Below, one piece after another: positions 23,315 through 32,137 of a stretch of DNA of 32,137 bases (the first letter of the stretch is position 1; every line of letters begins with the position of its first letter). The DNA comes from a bacterium (GTDB lineage Bacteria > UBA8248): positions 1-32,137 of the forward strand of contig JAVEPB010000190.1 in NCBI GenBank assembly GCA_030922375.1, in the 5' to 3' direction. The translations under genes and the position numbers were made by a program. The notes below the pieces were generated by a model. It ran no database searches. It saw nothing but the letters and a program-made list of their open reading frames with translations, and was not told where the DNA came from.

Positions 23315-25888
23315 TCAATCCGCGCCGCCGCCCGGTTCCCCCAGTGAACCCGGCGACATGCGTGCCTTTCTCCGCTGAATCGTCCGGAGCCAGCCCTCCA
23401 GTGATTTGACCACATCGCTATGCGGCCCCGAATAGGATGGCTCCGCATCTTCAATAACCTCTTCGGCGGGCCGGGGCAAGTCCCCCTCCCCGCTTTCCGC
23501 CAGCCTGGCCTCAAGCTCCTGTATTTTCGCTTCAAGCCACGGCGAGTCCCGTTCCGCCGTCAACGCCTTGCGGCACAGATCGAGCGCCAGCGGGGCGTTC
23601 CCCTCATTAATATACATATCGATGATCCCGCTCATCATCTCCTCGGCCTGACTCAGGGCGGGCACGGCCTCGGGAGCAGGCTCCTCCATCGCCCCCATAT
23701 CCCCGGCAATATCCGCCTCCCCCGGCGCCGCTTCGGCAGCCTCGGGGAGTTCAGCGAGTTCAATCTCGGGCACGGCCTCGGGAGCGGGCTCGTCGGTCAG
23801 AGAGATCGATTCTTGAGGCAGGGCCTCCTGAGGCGGCGACTCTGGGAGCCCTGCCTCAAGATTTGATACCTCTGGCGTTAAAACCTCCGGAGTCGAAACC
23901 TGGGGCTCTTCTTCCTCCTCGAAAACCACCGATTCGAGATAGACATCCGCGCCGCCCGCTTCGGCCTCCAATTCCGCCCCGGCCTCTCCCGGCTCACCGG
24001 AAGCCGAAGGCTCATCTGTAGACGGGGCCTCTTCGGCGGCGGCGTCATTATCTATTTCCGCCATTTCCTCGGCGAAAAGGGCGTCGAGATCATCTCCCTC
24101 TCCGGCGGGGTCCCCACCGAGGGTGGGCCCTTCAAGGGCGGGCTCCTCAACAGCGGGGCCTTCTTCTCCTTCGGGCACCTCTTCCAGAGCCGCCTCGGCG
24201 ACCGGCTCCGCATCATCCGAAACCTCCGCGGCGATGGACTCTTCCGCTATTATCGCCTCCGCATCGCCCGTGGAAATTTCGGCTTCCTCCGGAAGAGGAA
24301 CCTCCTCCGGCGCCCCTTCCGGGACCTCCGCCGAAACGGACTCTCCAAGCTCCTCCTCGAACAGGGCATCCAAATCGCCGAAGCCCTCCTCGGCCCCGGC
24401 TTCTTCCGCCCCGGCCACCGCCGCAGCCTCTTCCTCTCCGGGCTCGTCGGGCGGCTCCCCGAGGGCGGCCAGATCGTCGAGCCCTTCGGCGGGCTCCTCG
24501 GCCAGCAGCGCATCGAACTCGTTCAGATCGTCGGCCCCGGCTTCCTCTGCCCCGGTCACCGCGGCAGCTTCTTCCTCGCCGGGCTCGTCGGGCGGTTCCC
24601 CGAGGGCGGCCAGATCGTCGGACTCCTCGGCCAGCAGCGCATCGAACTCGTTCAGATCGTCGCCCTCCGGTTCCGCCCCGGCCACCGCCGCAGCCTCTTC
24701 CTCGCCGGGCTCGTCGGGGGGCTCCCCGAGGGCGGCCAGATCGTCGGACTCATCCACGGCATCCACCTCCGCAACAGGCGCGGGAGCGGATGGCTCCTCA
24801 GACTCTTCGGCGAACAGGGCATCGAGATCGTCCACTTCACCGCCCGCGTCCGCCGCGGCAGGAGCCGGGGTATCCTCCGGCTCATCGGCGAACAGGGCGT
24901 CCAGATCATCCACCTCACCGCCCGCTTCCGCCTCGGCAGGCGCGGGGGCGGCGGCCTCTTCCGGTTCATCGGAGAACAGGGCATCGAGATCGTCCACCTC
25001 GCCGCCCGCGTCCGCAGGTTCCTCAGCCTGGGCAGCGGGAGCCTCAACATCGGGCGAGGCTTCGCCGCCAGCGGCCTCGTCAAGGATGGAGTCAAAATCC
25101 TCCACCTCGGGCGCGACACCGGCGTCAACATCGAGCGCGGCATCATCGAGCGCATCAGCGCCGCCTCCAGCGACGCCAGCGCTGCCTGTAGCCTCCTCAA
25201 GAATGGAGTCAAAATCCTCAACCTCGGGCACGGGCGCGGCCCCGCCGCCGGCGCCGAGTTGATCCTGAAGATCGGAGATTTTTTCGAGGTAATCGGTATT
25301 CTCCGGGTCCTCCTCGGCGAGAGTTCGGTAGACATCCAGTGCTTTTTCGAGATGACCTTGGGAGACATAAAGCTCGGCGAGCGATTCGGTAGGCACGGCA
25401 TCGCCAGCCTCCTCGATCGGGGCCTCCCCGATCGACACCCCGTCCCGCACGGGCGCGGAGGGGACCGAAGCCGGAGCGGCTCCGCCTTCTTCGAGAGCGG
25501 CTGCGGCGGCATCGCCCGGATCGAACATGCCGATCGCCACGAGAGCGCGGCGCACCCCTCCCTCATCGCCCGACTTCTTGTGGCAATCCATGAGGAAGCG
25601 CTGGGCGGCGAGATTCCAGGGGGATCGCGCAATCGCCTTTTCGAGCTCGCTCGCCGCCTCGCTGATCTGATCTTTCGCCAGGTAAATTTCGCCGAGAAGG
25701 ACGCGGGGGGCGGTGTAGGCCGCGTGATGCTGGAGGCCGCTCGTCAGAAGGTCGATGGCCTTATCGGCTTCGCCCTTCTCCCAGTTGAGGCCGGCAAGCG
25801 GAAAAAACGCCGGGGAGGCCGGATCGTCGGCAAGCTGTGCCTCGAGAGCCTGAATCCTGGAATCGATATCGCCTAGTCGAGATGCCAT
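23315..25888 (-). CDS. TPR-containing protein with a long acidic Ala/Glu/Asp-rich repeat region
   Basis: MASRLGDIDSRIQALEAQLADDPASPAFFPLAGLNWEKGEADKAIDLLTSGLQHHAAYTAPRVLLGEIYLAKDQISEAASELEKAIARSPWNL (TPR), then acidic repeats with DDLDALF/EFDALL, then a helical C-terminus with a further TPR-like segment; start at 25888. Confidence 0.85.
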   Translation of the reverse strand: MASRLGDIDSRIQALEAQLADDPASPAFFPLAGLNWEKGEADKAIDLLTSGLQHHAAYTAPRVLLGEIYLAKDQISEAASELEKAIARSPWNLAAQRFLMDCHKKSGDEGGVRRALVAIGMFDPGDAAAAALEEGGAAPASVPSAPVRDGVSIGEAPIEEAGDAVPTESLAELYVSQGHLEKALDVYRTLAEEDPENTDYLEKISDLQDQLGAGGGAAPVPEVEDFDSILEEATGSAGVAGGGADALDDAALDVDAGVAPEVEDFDSILDEAAGGEASPDVEAPAAQAEEPADAGGEVDDLDALFSDEPEEAAAPAPAEAEAGGEVDDLDALFADEPEDTPAPAAADAGGEVDDLDALFAEESEEPSAPAPVAEVDAVDESDDLAALGEPPDEPGEEEAAAVAGAEPEGDDLNEFDALLAEESDDLAALGEPPDEPGEEEAAAVTGAEEAGADDLNEFDALLAEEPAEGLDDLAALGEPPDEPGEEEAAAVAGAEEAGAEEGFGDLDALFEEELGESVSAEVPEGAPEEVPLPEEAEISTGDAEAIIAEESIAAEVSDDAEPVAEAALEEVPEGEEGPAVEEPALEGPTLGGDPAGEGDDLDALFAEEMAEIDNDAAAEEAPSTDEPSASGEPGEAGAELEAEAGGADVYLESVVFEEEEEPQVSTPEVLTPEVSNLEAGLPESPPQEALPQESISLTDEPAPEAVPEIELAELPEAAEAAPGEADIAGDMGAMEEPAPEAVPALSQAEEMMSGIIDMYINEGNAPLALDLCRKALTAERDSPWLEAKIQELEARLAESGEGDLPRPAEEVIEDAEPSYSGPHSDVVKSLEGWLRTIQRRKARMSPGSLGEPGGGAD
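24408..24770. repeat. Tandem DNA repeat (three copies, 126 bp and 141 bp spacing) within the acidic TPR protein gene
   Basis: Encodes DDLAALGEPPDEPGEEEAAAV(A/T)GAE... three times; the spacings differ by exactly 5 codons. Confidence 0.85.
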
Positions 25889-25975
25889 TAGAGTCTGCCG
25901 GACGGGATGGAATAAACAATAACAACGTAAGGCTAGCAAAGCCCACTTTCCCTGACAAGGCTTGAAGATCAACCC

Positions 25976-26005
25976 TTTACCCGCCTTGAACCGGAAACGT
26001 ATACT
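25976..26005 (+). promoter_or_regulatory. Putative promoter for hyuAB
   Basis: TTTACC-N18-TATACT in the divergent intergenic region. Confidence 0.3.
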
Positions 26006-26050
26006 CCCCGGACCTCTTCTCGAAATTCCGCCGGGAGATAGAACTCGAAG

Positions 26051-28180
26051 ATGATTCAAATTGGCATCGACGCCGGGGGAACATTCACGGATTTCTGGGT
26101 AGCGGAGGACTCTCCCGGCCTCTCTCCCGAATACGAGGGAGCCCCCCATAAAACCCCCTCGACGCCGGAGGACCCCTCCCGGGCGGTCATCCGGGGGCTG
26201 GGGGAAATCGCCGCCGCGCGGGGGCTAACCACAGGGGATCTCCTCGAAGACACCCGCCTCATTGTCCACGGGACGACCGTTGCGACCAACGCCGTCCTCA
26301 CCGAAAGCGGCGCCCGGGCCGGCCTCATCACCACCCGGGGTTTCAGGGATATTCTCGAAATGCGCCGGGGCTGGCGCGAGGATTTTTTCGACAACAAGCG
26401 GCCGCTGCCCAAACCCCTCATCCGCCGGGCGCTGCGCCGCACGGTGACGGGCCGCCTCGATGAGACCGGAGCCGAACTCGAACCCCTCGACGAGGTCAGT
26501 GTGCGCGAGGAGGCCCTGAGGCTCAGGGCGGAGGGCGCCGAGTCGGTCGCCCTTTGCTTCATGCACGCCTGGGCGAATCCGGCGCACGAAATGCGGGCGG
26601 CCGAGATCGTACGCGAAGCGTTCCCCGAGGCGTTTCTGACCGTCTCCTCGGAACTCCTGCCGCAGATTCGCCTCTTTGAGCGAGTGAGCACCTGCGCCTT
26701 CAACGCCTATGTCGGCCCCATCATTCAAGAATATCTGGAGAAGCTCGACAGCGCGCTGCGCGGGCTCGGCTTCGGGGGCGCTTTCCTCATCATGGGCTCC
26801 CACGGCGGGGTCATGACCGCCCCCGTCGCCGCGCGGCGGGCCGCCGCCTCCCTGCTCTCGGGCCCGGCCGCGGCCCCCGTCGCCGCGGGCCGGGTGGCCG
26901 CTCCGCACGGAATCGAGGACTACATCGTCACCGACATGGGCGGGACCAGCTTCGATGTCGCTCTCGTCCAGGGCGGCGAACCCCTCGTTTCCCAGGAAAA
27001 CTGGCTCGGCGGCAAGCGAATCGCCCTGCCCTCGCTGGACATCCACACCCTGGGCGCGGGCGGAGGAAGCGTCGCCTGGGCCGACCGGGGAGGCATCCTC
27101 CACATCGGCCCCGAGAGCGCCGGGGCGAGCCCCGGGCCCGCCTGCTACGGCCAAGGCGGGCGGAAGCCCACGGCCACCGACGCCTGCCTGGCCCTGGGCT
27201 ACCTGGACCCCGAATATTTTCTCGGGGGAAAGGTCCGCCTCGATCCCCGCGCCGCCGGCGAGGCCATTAACCGGGGCGTCGCCGAGCCGATGGGGATGCC
27301 GGCCGAGGAGGCGGCGCTGGGAATCTACGAGCTCATCTGCGTCCAGATGGCGGCGGGAATCCGTGAGGTGACCATCCGCCGGGGGCTCGACCCGCGCGAT
27401 TTCCTGATGCTGGCGGCGGGAGGGGCGGGACCGCTTCACGCCAATCACATCGCGCGCGAGCTGGGCATCTCCCTCATCATGGCCCCCAGGGACTCGGCCG
27501 TTTTTTGCGCGGCCGGCATGCTCGCCTCGGATCTGAAGCACGATCTCGCGGTGAGCTGGCGTGCGAGATTCACGGAACTCGTCCCGGCGGAGCTGGCCGC
27601 GCGCTTCCGTGCGCTCCGGGACCAGTGCAGGGCCGTCCTCTCCGAGCAGGGAGTCTCCGGGGAGCGCATGCGGTTCGAGCCGGGGATGGACATCCGCTAC
27701 ATCGGTCAATACCACGAGGTCGGCGTCCCCCTGCCCACCGAGATGATCGATGCACCCGACATCGGCGGCATCCTCGACCGATTTCACGAGCGCCACGACA
27801 TCCTCTACGGCTACGCCACCAGAGAAATGCCGGCGGAATGCATCACGATGCGCATGAGCGCCCGCGGCCGGATGGACCGCCCCGAAACCCTTTCCCAAAA
27901 ATTAGGCGAGCCGCCCGCCGCGCCCCTCCCCCACGGCCGCCGGCCGATTCGCCTGCCCGGCGAGCCTCGCCGCCTCCCCGCCGAGGTCTACCGGTCGCTC
28001 ACACCGGGGCAGCTAATCGCCGGGCCCGCCATCGTCGAGCGGCCGAACACGACCGTTCTCGTCCTGGGGGATTACGAACTCGCCTGCGACGCCTCGGGCA
28101 ACTACATTATCTGGCCCGAAGCCAGGTCCGCTGAGATGCGCGCCCGCTTTCTTTCAGATGTCGGGAGCGCCCGGGGATGA
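26051..28180 (+). CDS. hyuA: Hydantoinase/oxoprolinase subunit A (HyuA family)
   Basis: MIQIGIDAGGTFTDFWV...LIVHGTTVATNAVLTESGARAGLITTRGFRDILEMRRG...VTDMGGTSFDVALV...HTLGAGGGSVAW. Confidence 0.94.
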   Translation: MIQIGIDAGGTFTDFWVAEDSPGLSPEYEGAPHKTPSTPEDPSRAVIRGLGEIAAARGLTTGDLLEDTRLIVHGTTVATNAVLTESGARAGLITTRGFRDILEMRRGWREDFFDNKRPLPKPLIRRALRRTVTGRLDETGAELEPLDEVSVREEALRLRAEGAESVALCFMHAWANPAHEMRAAEIVREAFPEAFLTVSSELLPQIRLFERVSTCAFNAYVGPIIQEYLEKLDSALRGLGFGGAFLIMGSHGGVMTAPVAARRAAASLLSGPAAAPVAAGRVAAPHGIEDYIVTDMGGTSFDVALVQGGEPLVSQENWLGGKRIALPSLDIHTLGAGGGSVAWADRGGILHIGPESAGASPGPACYGQGGRKPTATDACLALGYLDPEYFLGGKVRLDPRAAGEAINRGVAEPMGMPAEEAALGIYELICVQMAAGIREVTIRRGLDPRDFLMLAAGGAGPLHANHIARELGISLIMAPRDSAVFCAAGMLASDLKHDLAVSWRARFTELVPAELAARFRALRDQCRAVLSEQGVSGERMRFEPGMDIRYIGQYHEVGVPLPTEMIDAPDIGGILDRFHERHDILYGYATREMPAECITMRMSARGRMDRPETLSQKLGEPPAAPLPHGRRPIRLPGEPRRLPAEVYRSLTPGQLIAGPAIVERPNTTVLVLGDYELACDASGNYIIWPEARSAEMRARFLSDVGSARG

Positions 28181-29919
28181 GCGTTAACGGCATCGACCCC
28201 ATCCTCGCCTCCGTCCTCCAGAGGCGGCTGCGCTCCATCACCGAGGAGATGGCCCTCACCCTCCTTCACACCACCCGATCGCCCATCCTCTCGGAGGGCC
28301 GGGACTTCGCCACCGGCATCTACCGGGCGAACGGCGACATGCTCGAGCAGACCGAGTACACAGCGCTCCTTGGCTTCGCCCTTCAACCCTCGCTCAAGGC
28401 CTGCATCGAATATTTCGGGGACGACATCGGTCCGGGCGACGTGATCTTTCACAACGACGTTTACAACGCCGGAAACCAGATCAACGACCTGGGGGTGTTC
28501 AAACCCATTTTCCTCGAGGGCAAGCTCGTCGCGTGGGCCGCTTGCAAGGCCCATCAGGCGGACCTGGGCGGGGGCGCTCCCGGCGGCTACAACCCGGACG
28601 CCACCGAGGTCTGGCACGAGGGCCTTCGTGTGCCGCCCCTGAAGATGTGGGCGGGCGGGAAGCTCCGCCGGGATGTCTGGGACTTTCTCTTCGCCAACAC
28701 CCGCCTCGACATCGTCGCCGAGGATGCAAAGGCCTGCGCCGGCTCCTGCAGCGTGGGCGAGCGGCGCGTCCTCGATGTATTGGACCGCTACGGCCGCGAT
28801 GTCTTCGACCGCCATATGGACTACGTCATCGACGGCGCCGAGCGAATCATGCGGGGCGAGATCGCCGCCATGCCCGACGGTGTGTACCGGGGCGAGTCCT
28901 TCCTCGCCAACGACGGTCACCAGGAGGGCGTCCGCCACAAAGTCGTCTGCACGGTCACCATCGCGGGCGATTCGATCAAATTCGACTACACGGGCTCGGC
29001 GGGTCCGACGCCCGGCTACGCGAACGCCCCGCTTCACGCCGCGACGAGCGGCCTGATGATCGCCGTCCTGATGAACGTCGATCCGCAAATTCCGCACAAC
29101 GCGGGCATCCTCCGGCCCCTCGAAATGATCTTCCCCGAGAACTCGATGCTGAACGCCGAGTTTCCCCATGCCACCAGCTACGGCAACCACCTCACCCACC
29201 AGATATGGGAGGCCGCCGTGAAGGCGCTCGCTCAGGCGGTACCCCACAGCGTCACCGCCGGATGGAACAAGTGCTACTGGGGGATGTCGAGCGGCCTCGA
29301 CGGGCGGAGCGGCCGCCGCTACGTCGATTTTTTCCTGTTCGCGATGAAGGGGGGATCGGGCGCGACCGAAGGCCTCGACGGCTCCGCCCATCTGGGCACG
29401 GTGATGACGGGCGGGGCGATGACCGCGCAGGACCCCGAGATGCACGAGGTCCAGACCCCCCACCGCCTTCATCACTTCGAATTCGAGATCGACTCGGCCG
29501 GCCCCGGTCGCTGGCGCGGCGGGCTCGGCGTTCGGTCAAAGTGGAAGATCCTGGGCCAGGACGCCAAGGTCATCATGTTCGGCCAGCAGACCGAGCCCGG
29601 AGAGGAGCCCTTCGGCCTCTTCGGCGGCAAGCCCGCCGGCCTCAACACCGCCCGCCTCACCCATCCCGACGGGCGGGAACGCCGGCCCAAGGGCCACGAA
29701 ATCATCCCGGACGCGGACGGCGCGATTATCGAGATGACCGCATCGGGCGGCGGCGGGTACGGGGACCCGAGGCTGCGGCCCGCCGACCTGATCCGGGAGG
29801 AGGTGCGCGACGAAATTATTTCAATCGAATCGGCCCGGCGCGACTACGGGGTGGCGCTCGATCCCCTGACGCTCGAAATCGATGAAGACGAAACCGCGCG
29901 CCTCCGGAAAGGGGTCTAG
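28177..29919 (+). CDS. hyuB: Hydantoinase B/oxoprolinase family protein (HyuB)
   Basis: MSVNGIDPILASVLQRRLRSITEEMALTLLHTTRSPILSEGRDFATGIYRANGDMLEQ...; C-terminal TASGGGGYGDPRLR; ATGA overlap with hyuA. Confidence 0.94.
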   Translation: MSVNGIDPILASVLQRRLRSITEEMALTLLHTTRSPILSEGRDFATGIYRANGDMLEQTEYTALLGFALQPSLKACIEYFGDDIGPGDVIFHNDVYNAGNQINDLGVFKPIFLEGKLVAWAACKAHQADLGGGAPGGYNPDATEVWHEGLRVPPLKMWAGGKLRRDVWDFLFANTRLDIVAEDAKACAGSCSVGERRVLDVLDRYGRDVFDRHMDYVIDGAERIMRGEIAAMPDGVYRGESFLANDGHQEGVRHKVVCTVTIAGDSIKFDYTGSAGPTPGYANAPLHAATSGLMIAVLMNVDPQIPHNAGILRPLEMIFPENSMLNAEFPHATSYGNHLTHQIWEAAVKALAQAVPHSVTAGWNKCYWGMSSGLDGRSGRRYVDFFLFAMKGGSGATEGLDGSAHLGTVMTGGAMTAQDPEMHEVQTPHRLHHFEFEIDSAGPGRWRGGLGVRSKWKILGQDAKVIMFGQQTEPGEEPFGLFGGKPAGLNTARLTHPDGRERRPKGHEIIPDADGAIIEMTASGGGGYGDPRLRPADLIREEVRDEIISIESARRDYGVALDPLTLEIDEDETARLRKGV

Positions 29920-29939: not shown

Positions 29940-30374
29940 TCAGGATGAAACCAGCGGGCCGCCGTACAGGCGGTGCTCGACCATGATTCAAAGATCCATG
30001 ACGACCTCGAGGCCCGCCCGCTCGGCGCGGGCCGCGGCTTCCTCGTCGATGACGCCTTTTTGGAGCCAGATCGCCCGCGTCCCGGCGGCGATGGCTTCGT
30101 CCACCACCCCGCTCACGAAATTGCTCCGCCGGAAAACGTTCACCATCTCGGGGGGCTCGGGCAGCGCGGAGAGCCGCGGATAGCACCGCTCGCCGAGGAG
30201 TTCATCGTGACCGGGGTTGACGGGAACGATCTCGTAGCCCGCCTGTTGCATGTAGATGCTCACGTAATGGCTGGGCCGGTGTTCCTTGGGCGAGAGACCC
30301 ACCACGGCGATGCGCCTAAAATCCCGGAGCACCTGCCGGACGGCCCCTGAATCCTGAAAGTCGCCGCCGCTCAT
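29940..30374 (-). CDS. CoA-binding-domain protein (YccU-like); candidate selenoprotein with in-frame TGA at 29988-29990 (conventional ORF 29988-30374)
   Basis: MSGGDFQDSGAVRQVLRDFRRIAVVGLSPKEHRPSHYVSIYMQQAGYEIVPVNPGHDELLGERCYPRLSALPEPPEMVNVFRRSNFVSGVVDEAIAAGTRAIWLQKGVIDEEAAARAERAGLEVVMDL-(TGA)-IMVEHRLYGGPLVSS-stop. Family assignment is strong; the readthrough extension is inferred. Confidence 0.72.
29946..29990 (-). promoter_or_regulatory. Candidate bacterial SECIS-like stem-loop immediately 3' of the in-frame UGA
   Basis: RNA: UGAAUC AUGGUCG AGC A CCGCC-UGUAC-GGCGG CCC GCU GGUUUCA; CCGCC/GGCGG apical stem, AGC/GCU below, UGAAUC/GGUUUCA outer pairing; apical loop UGUAC starts after 19 nt, G at loop position 2. 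Confidence 0.55.
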
Positions 30375-31204
30375 TCGCTTATTTCCGCCTCCGCGGTCCG
30401 ATGGTCGCTCGCTTCCCACTCCCCCAAATGTTCCCGAAGCGATTCGGGGCTGTCGGCTGCGCCTAAAAACGCGGACACGGCCTCCTCATCGGTATCGTAG
30501 AGCGGATAGCACGAAGCCGGGGCCGCCCCGCCGGGCAGGTGGACCACCGCGTCCACCATGAACCCCGGTATATTCGTCCGCTCGGGTTTGTCCTCGAAAA
30601 ACTTCGTTGGGGCGATACGCTCGGCGGTGAGGATGACGCCCTCGGAGGCGCGGGAGAGGAGCACATCCTCGAACGGGCCGCCGTCGATACGCGCGTTTCC
30701 GGCCGCGTCGGCGTGCTGAACGTGGACGACCGCCCAGTCGGGCCGTATTCGGGGGATCATGTAAACGCTCTTTCCCGTGTAGGGGTCCTCGGCCTGGAGG
30801 AACCCCGAACTCGCCGGGGTGTCCGAGCCGTCGAACCCCGAGACCGGCTGGCTCGGAAGCCCGTAGGCCGAGGCGCGCAGGCCCGCGATCACGCTGTAGC
30901 AGGCGTGTTCCACCACCCGGATATTTCCGCTCTCGACCCCGCGCCGGTAGGAGGGCGCCATGCCGAAGAGGTTTTCGTAGCCGATGTAGCCCGCCCGCAC
31001 CTCGGCCACCGCCCCCGCCGCGCAGAGGAGATCGATCTCGTAGGCCCCCGCCGTTTTAATCATGACGAGGCCCCGGCGACCCTGACGCGCGAGCTCGCGG
31101 GCGAAGGCCGACGGGGTGCGCGAGAGCGAATTGCCGCCCAGCGCGACCATCTGACCGTCCCGGACGAGGCCGCCGGCCTCTACAAGAGATATCAGCTTGC
31201 TCAC
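30371..31204 (-). CDS. CoA-transferase family protein, subunit A-like
   Basis: MSKLISLVEAGGLVRDGQMVALGGNSLSRTPSAFARELARQGRRGLVMIKTAGAYEIDLLCAAGAVAEVRAGYIGYENLFGMAPSYRRGVESG...; ATGA overlap with the CoA-binding gene. Confidence 0.85.
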   Translation of the reverse strand: MSKLISLVEAGGLVRDGQMVALGGNSLSRTPSAFARELARQGRRGLVMIKTAGAYEIDLLCAAGAVAEVRAGYIGYENLFGMAPSYRRGVESGNIRVVEHACYSVIAGLRASAYGLPSQPVSGFDGSDTPASSGFLQAEDPYTGKSVYMIPRIRPDWAVVHVQHADAAGNARIDGGPFEDVLLSRASEGVILTAERIAPTKFFEDKPERTNIPGFMVDAVVHLPGGAAPASCYPLYDTDEEAVSAFLGAADSPESLREHLGEWEASDHRTAEAEISE

Positions 31205-31260: not shown

Positions 31261-32031
31261 CTAGCGTTCCACCCGGCGAAGCGCGGCGAACTCCGAGTAG
31301 CGCACCCCCTCGGGATCGATCTCGGCGAGGGCGGCGAGTTCATCCTCCGTAGGCGGGATGGTCTCGGGTACTTCAGCGCCCAGATCGAGCGGAAATCCCG
31401 TCCGCCCGACCACCTCTTCCACCGAAACGCCCGGATGAACGCTCCCCAGCTCAAGGCCCCCCCCGCGCATCTCCATCACGGCCAGCGGAGTGACCACCCG
31501 CGCCAGGTTGCCCGACTGGGTGACGAAATCCACCTTCTCGACAAAAGTGCGCCGGTCGTGCACCACCCGCCAGATCACGATCCGCCGGGCCTGCTCCATG
31601 ATGACCGACCCGCCCCCGCCTCCGGGCAGGCGAACCTTAGGGGCGGACGGCTCGCCGATGTAGCTCATGTTCACGCGGCCCGCCTTGTCGATCTGCGCAC
31701 CGCCCAGGTACATGAGATCGACCCCGCCCCGCGCGAAAAGATCGTAGGCGTCGGCGTTCGAGAAGATCACCGCCGCCCCCTGGCACAGCGCCGGATCGTT
31801 CGTGCTGAAGGGCAACCGCCCGGGCCTTGGGTCCACCGAGCCGGCCACCTCGATGAGAACGCTCCCCGGCGCATGCAGCTTTTTGGCGAGAAAAATCGCC
31901 ACCATCGGAAGCGGGGAGTTCACGCCGTGAAAGACGCGCTCACCCTCGCGCAGCTCCCGGGACAGGCAGACGGCCATCTGATCCGCCGCATCGCGCGCGG
32001 CCTGAACTTCGCTTTCCGCTTTCAGACTCAT
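31261..32031 (-). CDS. CoA-transferase family protein, subunit B-like (glutaconate CoA-transferase B / IpdB-like)
   Basis: VFHGVNSPLPMVAIFLAKKLHAPGSVLIEVAGSVDPRPGRLPFSTNDPALCQGA...DLMYLGGAQIDKAGRVNMSYIG...RLPGGGGGSVIMEQARRIVIW. Confidence 0.85.
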   Translation of the reverse strand: MSLKAESEVQAARDAADQMAVCLSRELREGERVFHGVNSPLPMVAIFLAKKLHAPGSVLIEVAGSVDPRPGRLPFSTNDPALCQGAAVIFSNADAYDLFARGGVDLMYLGGAQIDKAGRVNMSYIGEPSAPKVRLPGGGGGSVIMEQARRIVIWRVVHDRRTFVEKVDFVTQSGNLARVVTPLAVMEMRGGGLELGSVHPGVSVEEVVGRTGFPLDLGAEVPETIPPTEDELAALAEIDPEGVRYSEFAALRRVER

Positions 32032-32035
32032 TTGA

Positions 32036-32137
32036 TCATACCTGTAGATACGCCTCGGCCTCTGCGAGATATTCGGCGAGACCGTCCGCCGTTCGGGAAA
32101 CCTCCATGTAGCGGCGCATCCTCGCCTCGTCCACTCC
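32036..32137 (-). CDS. C-terminal fragment of a gene extending beyond the window (possibly another CoA-transferase-type subunit)
   Basis: Open frame GVDEARMRRYMEVSRTADGLAEYLAEAEAYLQV-stop, directly upstream of the CoA-transferase B gene; product assignment is a guess from context. Confidence 0.4.
   Translation of the reverse strand, partial: GVDEARMRRYMEVSRTADGLAEYLAEAEAYLQV

Follow-up and report, generated by a model that had tools for sequence, protein, structure and literature searches.

In a little-known genus of marine bacteria, a gene encoding a protein of the CoA_binding_2 family (PF13380) carries an in-frame UGA at codon 129, at the position where the other aligned members of the family have an invariant cysteine, and is very probably a selenoprotein gene in which this UGA is read as selenocysteine (Sec). 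The recoded codon and its conservation are directly visible in the DNA of all the species of the genus available for comparison; Sec incorporation itself is inferred, with high confidence, from these sequences. In the proposed decoding, SelB and tRNA-Sec would read UGA codon 129 as Sec and thus yield a complete 144-residue CoA_binding_2 protein. The gene lies on contig JAVEPB010000190.1 (assembly GCA_030922375.1), which was analysed over a stretch of 32,137 nucleotides, hereafter the window. The features concerned are the following:

29940..30374, minus strand: gene of the probable Sec-containing CoA_binding_2 (PF13380) protein, 144 codons followed by a terminal TGA
29988..29990, minus strand: in-frame UGA, probable selenocysteine 129; the genus has TGA in five of five species, the 20 remaining homologues of the alignment have Cys
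29943..29987, minus strand: readthrough tail IMVEHRLYGGPLVSS; no difference among the five species over its first 11 residues, +16.3 bits in a Cys-only profile
29959..29973, minus strand: SECIS-like hairpin CCGCC-UGUAC-GGCGG; formed in five of five species, energy not above chance
30371..31204, minus strand: CoA-transferase subunit (PF01144), preceding the UGA gene within one operon; order kept in five of five species
31261..32031, minus strand: second CoA-transferase subunit (PF01144, Pfam match)
28177..29919, plus strand: hydantoinase B / oxoprolinase gene (PF02538); convergent position kept in five of five species
26051..28180, plus strand: hydantoinase A / oxoprolinase gene (PF01968, PF05378)

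The gene starts with the ATG at 30374-30372, which overlaps the stop codon of the upstream CoA-transferase gene in an ATGA at 30374-30371. Its frame runs through GLEVVMDL to the TGA at 29990-29988, continues over 15 codons and ends at a second TGA (29942-29940), 20 bp before the convergent hydantoinase B gene; both the overlap and the frame remaining open past the first TGA had been described in an earlier note on this DNA and are found as described. The gene order is the same throughout the genus (five of five species), with the CoA-transferase subunits located upstream of the UGA gene and the hydantoinase genes convergently downstream. The operon seems to contain three CoA-transferase-type genes, since it is preceded in congeners (loci L099, L100, L101 and L102) by an extra gene for a CoA-transferase subunit, which shares about 49% identity with the gene at 30371-31204, in a position beyond the window end at 32137. 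Elsewhere in the window, a 944-aa ORF (23315-26149, minus strand) with TPR-like sequence contains long acidic imperfect tandem repeats with periods of 141, 126 and 78 bp; the start predicted for it overlaps that of hyuA.

Conservation of the UGA codon and of the sequence downstream

The replacement of a reactive Cys by UGA is the hallmark of Sec. An alignment of 25 homologues contains seven invariant columns, including position 129, which is occupied by Cys in 20 of the 20 sequences outside the UGA group, and Cys is likewise the residue in additional homologues from other phyla, in agreement with the earlier proposal that the TGA takes the place of the conserved Cys of the family. Within the phylum, sampled by 18 species from six genera, TGA occurs at codon 129 in all five available species of the genus, a sample of five separate assemblies only, and is absent from the other five genera, whose aligned homologues have Cys. 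Of 386 surveyed genomes, drawn from across families, 69 gave a strong match, a TGA within the match being restricted to the genus of the window; no Sec version was detected outside this genus, either in the 386 genomes or in the two small phyla with the next best matches. In the phylogenetic tree, the UGA proteins of the five species group in a single clade (support 100/100) nested among Cys proteins of the phylum and a few others, so that the data are explained by one Cys-to-Sec change in the genus ancestor. All five species also possess, elsewhere in the genome, a separate Cys paralogue which belongs to another branch of the tree (L094 3288-3695, plus strand, and its equivalents in L095-L098, with provisional starts). 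This paralogue has a longer C-terminal tail and occurs in other genera of the phylum as well.

The 11 residues that follow the UGA, IMVEHRLYGGP, are identical in the five species, and the five nucleotides that vary within their codons are all located at third positions, for which the probability by chance is about 0.004 if the three codon positions are assumed equally likely to vary. Beyond these 11 codons the sequence becomes variable; up to there, the downstream codons are conserved at the protein level, with exclusively synonymous changes. Scored against a profile built from Cys proteins only, the full product reaches 181.7 bits versus 165.4 bits for the product cut at the UGA. The 16.3 bits contributed by the true tail exceed the contribution of any of 536 other tails derived from the window (next best total 175.9; 537 were scored, the lone one equalling 181.7 being taken as the true tail itself, a member of the set), and none of 500 shuffled tails reached this score. 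The earlier impression of a family-like rather than random tail is thereby borne out.

These data bear most directly on the possibility that the TGA is a genuine stop and that a functional protein of 128 residues is made, devoid of the Cys and of the last helix, with an incidental conservation downstream. The residues preceding the TGA still obtain by themselves the 165.4 bits mentioned above, as a functional short form would allow. However, 11 downstream residues fixed in five species with synonymous change only, a tail resembling that of the family and a Cys invariant in the other homologues all speak against the short form, which is considered very unlikely.

Decoding of the UGA codon

The earlier note also pointed to a SECIS-like hairpin following the UGA. 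The hairpin CCGCC-UGUAC-GGCGG (29973-29959) is indeed present, with a UGA-to-loop spacing of 19 nt and G as the second loop base, and in all five species it fits the published SECIS constraints, namely a hairpin 16-37 nt downstream, a G within the first two bases of the loop and an energy of at most -7.5 kcal/mol (PMC13188914), but 197 of 400 sampled TGAs of the window do so too. A stricter version with at least five contiguous pairs is satisfied by 128 of 768 TGAs, with the loop at exactly 19 nt in 9 of the 768, and the energy of the hairpin is no better than that of dinucleotide shuffles (z = -0.66). Taken alone, the hairpin is therefore weak evidence for a SECIS, because about half of the sampled TGAs in this GC-rich window also fit, and its use as an independent proof of Sec was rejected on the basis of these controls; what stands of the earlier observation is the hairpin with its spacing and loop base, not its being unusual among the TGAs of the window. 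No compensatory changes occur in the stem among the five species, because the stem is nearly invariant. Third positions do not vary within the stem or at the G of the loop, whereas several outside do, which is consistent with selection at the RNA level but does not prove it. An Rfam scan of the window matched no family.

The machinery for Sec, sought as selA, selB, selC and selD, was for the most part recovered. The genome of the window contains a tRNA-Sec whose anticodon is UCA, as well as selB and selD, the last with an in-frame TGA of its own at the expected active-site position in an AGGUGSK motif. This UGA-containing selD (L048 634-2493, minus strand) is an independent selenoprotein of the same genome. 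In contrast, selA was not found in this draft genome (G000) but is complete in three congeners, in one of which (G003) it is located 947 bp upstream of selB; the selB contig of the window's genome extends only about 650 bp upstream of selB, so that an assembly gap explains the missing gene, whose absence is probably due to the draft state of the genome. The tRNA-Sec was found in four of the five species and selB in all five, although partial in one. The species without a tRNA-Sec match (G002, 70% complete) probably owes this to a draft gap as well. The congener G003 shows two equally scoring tRNA-Sec matches, on contigs C100 and C104, which correspond to a duplication or to a mixture of strains in the draft.

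Conservation tells that the codon is translated and not which residue enters, and would also result if an ordinary near-cognate tRNA read through the UGA and inserted Cys or Trp instead of Sec. Yet the genome carries tRNA-Sec, SelB and a UGA-containing selD, the UGA stands in for a reactive Cys, and TGA serves as the ordinary stop of the neighbouring gene; such readthrough is considered very unlikely. Since TGA terminates the adjacent CoA-transferase gene, the code is not changed genome-wide, and a globally altered genetic code was rejected. A pseudogene, a point mutation or an assembly error deserves hardly any credence: a single change from TGC or TGT would be enough to create the codon, but close relatives, for which the earlier note had considered TGC or TGT a sign of such an accident, carry the identical TGA in five genomes that were assembled separately, purifying selection acts on either side of it, and a sequencing error or pseudogene is thus refuted by the congeners.

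Fold of the protein and its possible CoA chemistry

The readthrough product matches the Pfam profile PF13380 with 146.9 bits (cut-off 22.8) over the whole profile (1-116 of 116), the match covering residues 20-135; the domain therefore spans UGA codon 129. By its membership of this family, the product would bind CoA. Its predicted structure has a mean pLDDT of 92.8, with a last helix (residues 130-137) wholly C-terminal to the UGA residue, and in this model residue 129 is part of the loop joining the last strand to the last helix. The closest structural matches of the model are PH1109, TT1466 and a CoA-binding protein of Klebsiella, followed by the CoA-binding domains of acyl-CoA and succinyl-CoA synthetases; the comparison with 2d5a gives a TM-score of 0.89 and an rmsd of 1.5. 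PH1109 (2d59, 2d5a), TT1466 (1iuk) and the Klebsiella protein (2duw) are solved PF13380 structures which share the common fold (TM-scores of about 0.8-0.9) and match the profile with E-values of about 1e-43 to 1e-42, but they have Cys, not Sec, at this column of the printed alignments and are devoid of any known activity.

Some indication of the role of residue 129 comes from YneT of B. subtilis, a small putative CoA-binding protein and a probable relative of the PF13380 CoA_binding_2 family. In B. subtilis spores, Cys126 of YneT is bonded to CoA within the peptide TVIMDLCIK (PMC8127865), to be compared with VVMDL-U-IMV here, at a similar C-terminal place; YneT, however, has Cys instead of Sec, and the likeness refers to the published peptide and to knowledge of the family. 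In the alpha subunit of S. aureus succinyl-CoA synthetase (SucD), CoA is found on the Cys of LVGPNC (PMC5989533). This subunit and the ADP-forming acyl-CoA synthetases have a homologous CoA-binding domain but are large ligases with additional domains and, again, Cys in place of Sec. In the profile alignment, the GPNC Cys of an acyl-CoA-synthetase-like domain falls on position 129, so that Sec129 would be located where homologous domains form mixed disulfides with CoA.

By analogy with these proteins, a CoA redox role of the UGA-gene product is proposed tentatively, with a likelihood somewhat short of even. As the likeliest chemistry, the protein would offer a redox site with one selenol, whose selenolate could either attack CoA disulfides and protein thiols modified by CoA, or capture CoA under oxidation; the Se-S-CoA bond formed at Sec129 would then be resolved by other thiols. 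Candidate roles include the reduction of CoA disulfides, the removal of CoA from proteins, the storage or sensing of CoA, and a service to the adjacent CoA transferase. In the last respect, Sec could serve the CoA-transferase metabolism, e.g., by binding CoA or acyl groups or presenting them to the partner enzyme, rather than redox defence. The conserved operon with the CoA-transferase subunits, together with the ATGA overlap in the window, is in line with this option, which is nevertheless rather unlikely, the CoA published on the matching Cys being a mixed disulfide and not a thioester (PMC8127865, PMC5989533).

Significance for the CoA_binding_2 family

The earlier note did not recall this family as a known selenoprotein family, and the open-licence literature agrees: no CoA-binding protein of the PF13380 kind figures among the 119 families and subfamilies of prokaryotic selenoproteins catalogued in 2026 (PMC13188914, Table 1) or in a selenoprotein list of 2022 (PMC9312934). 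The nearest catalogued function is that of a FAD-dependent CoA-disulfide reductase selenoprotein, also tied to CoA redox chemistry but with an unrelated flavoprotein fold and mechanism (PMC13188914, Table 1). No report of a Sec-CoA chemistry is apparent from the titles and abstracts of the few open-licence papers on CoAlation together with selenocysteine, and nothing relevant to selenoproteins of the Nitrospinota appeared among the ten best-ranked literature matches.

Thioredoxin-like folds dominate the selenoprotein catalogue, and the present protein adds a probable selenoprotein family outside these folds. Sec is usually a catalytic redox residue, and the invariant Cys of the widespread CoA_binding_2 family is therefore a likely reactive site. 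In B. subtilis, deCoAlation activity has so far been reported for enzymes of the thioredoxin type (PMC10136147). A more speculative and doubtful extension would be that the CoA_binding_2 proteins are CoA redoxins, a class of enzyme sought for a long time, with one thiol that exchanges CoA with proteins and CoA disulfides, and in which the genus has replaced the catalytic Cys by Sec; if this were true, the protein would represent the first Sec-CoA selenenylsulfide enzyme. Together with the CoA bound to the matching Cys of B. subtilis, the probable Sec would make of this protein a testable case for a family handling CoA disulfides.
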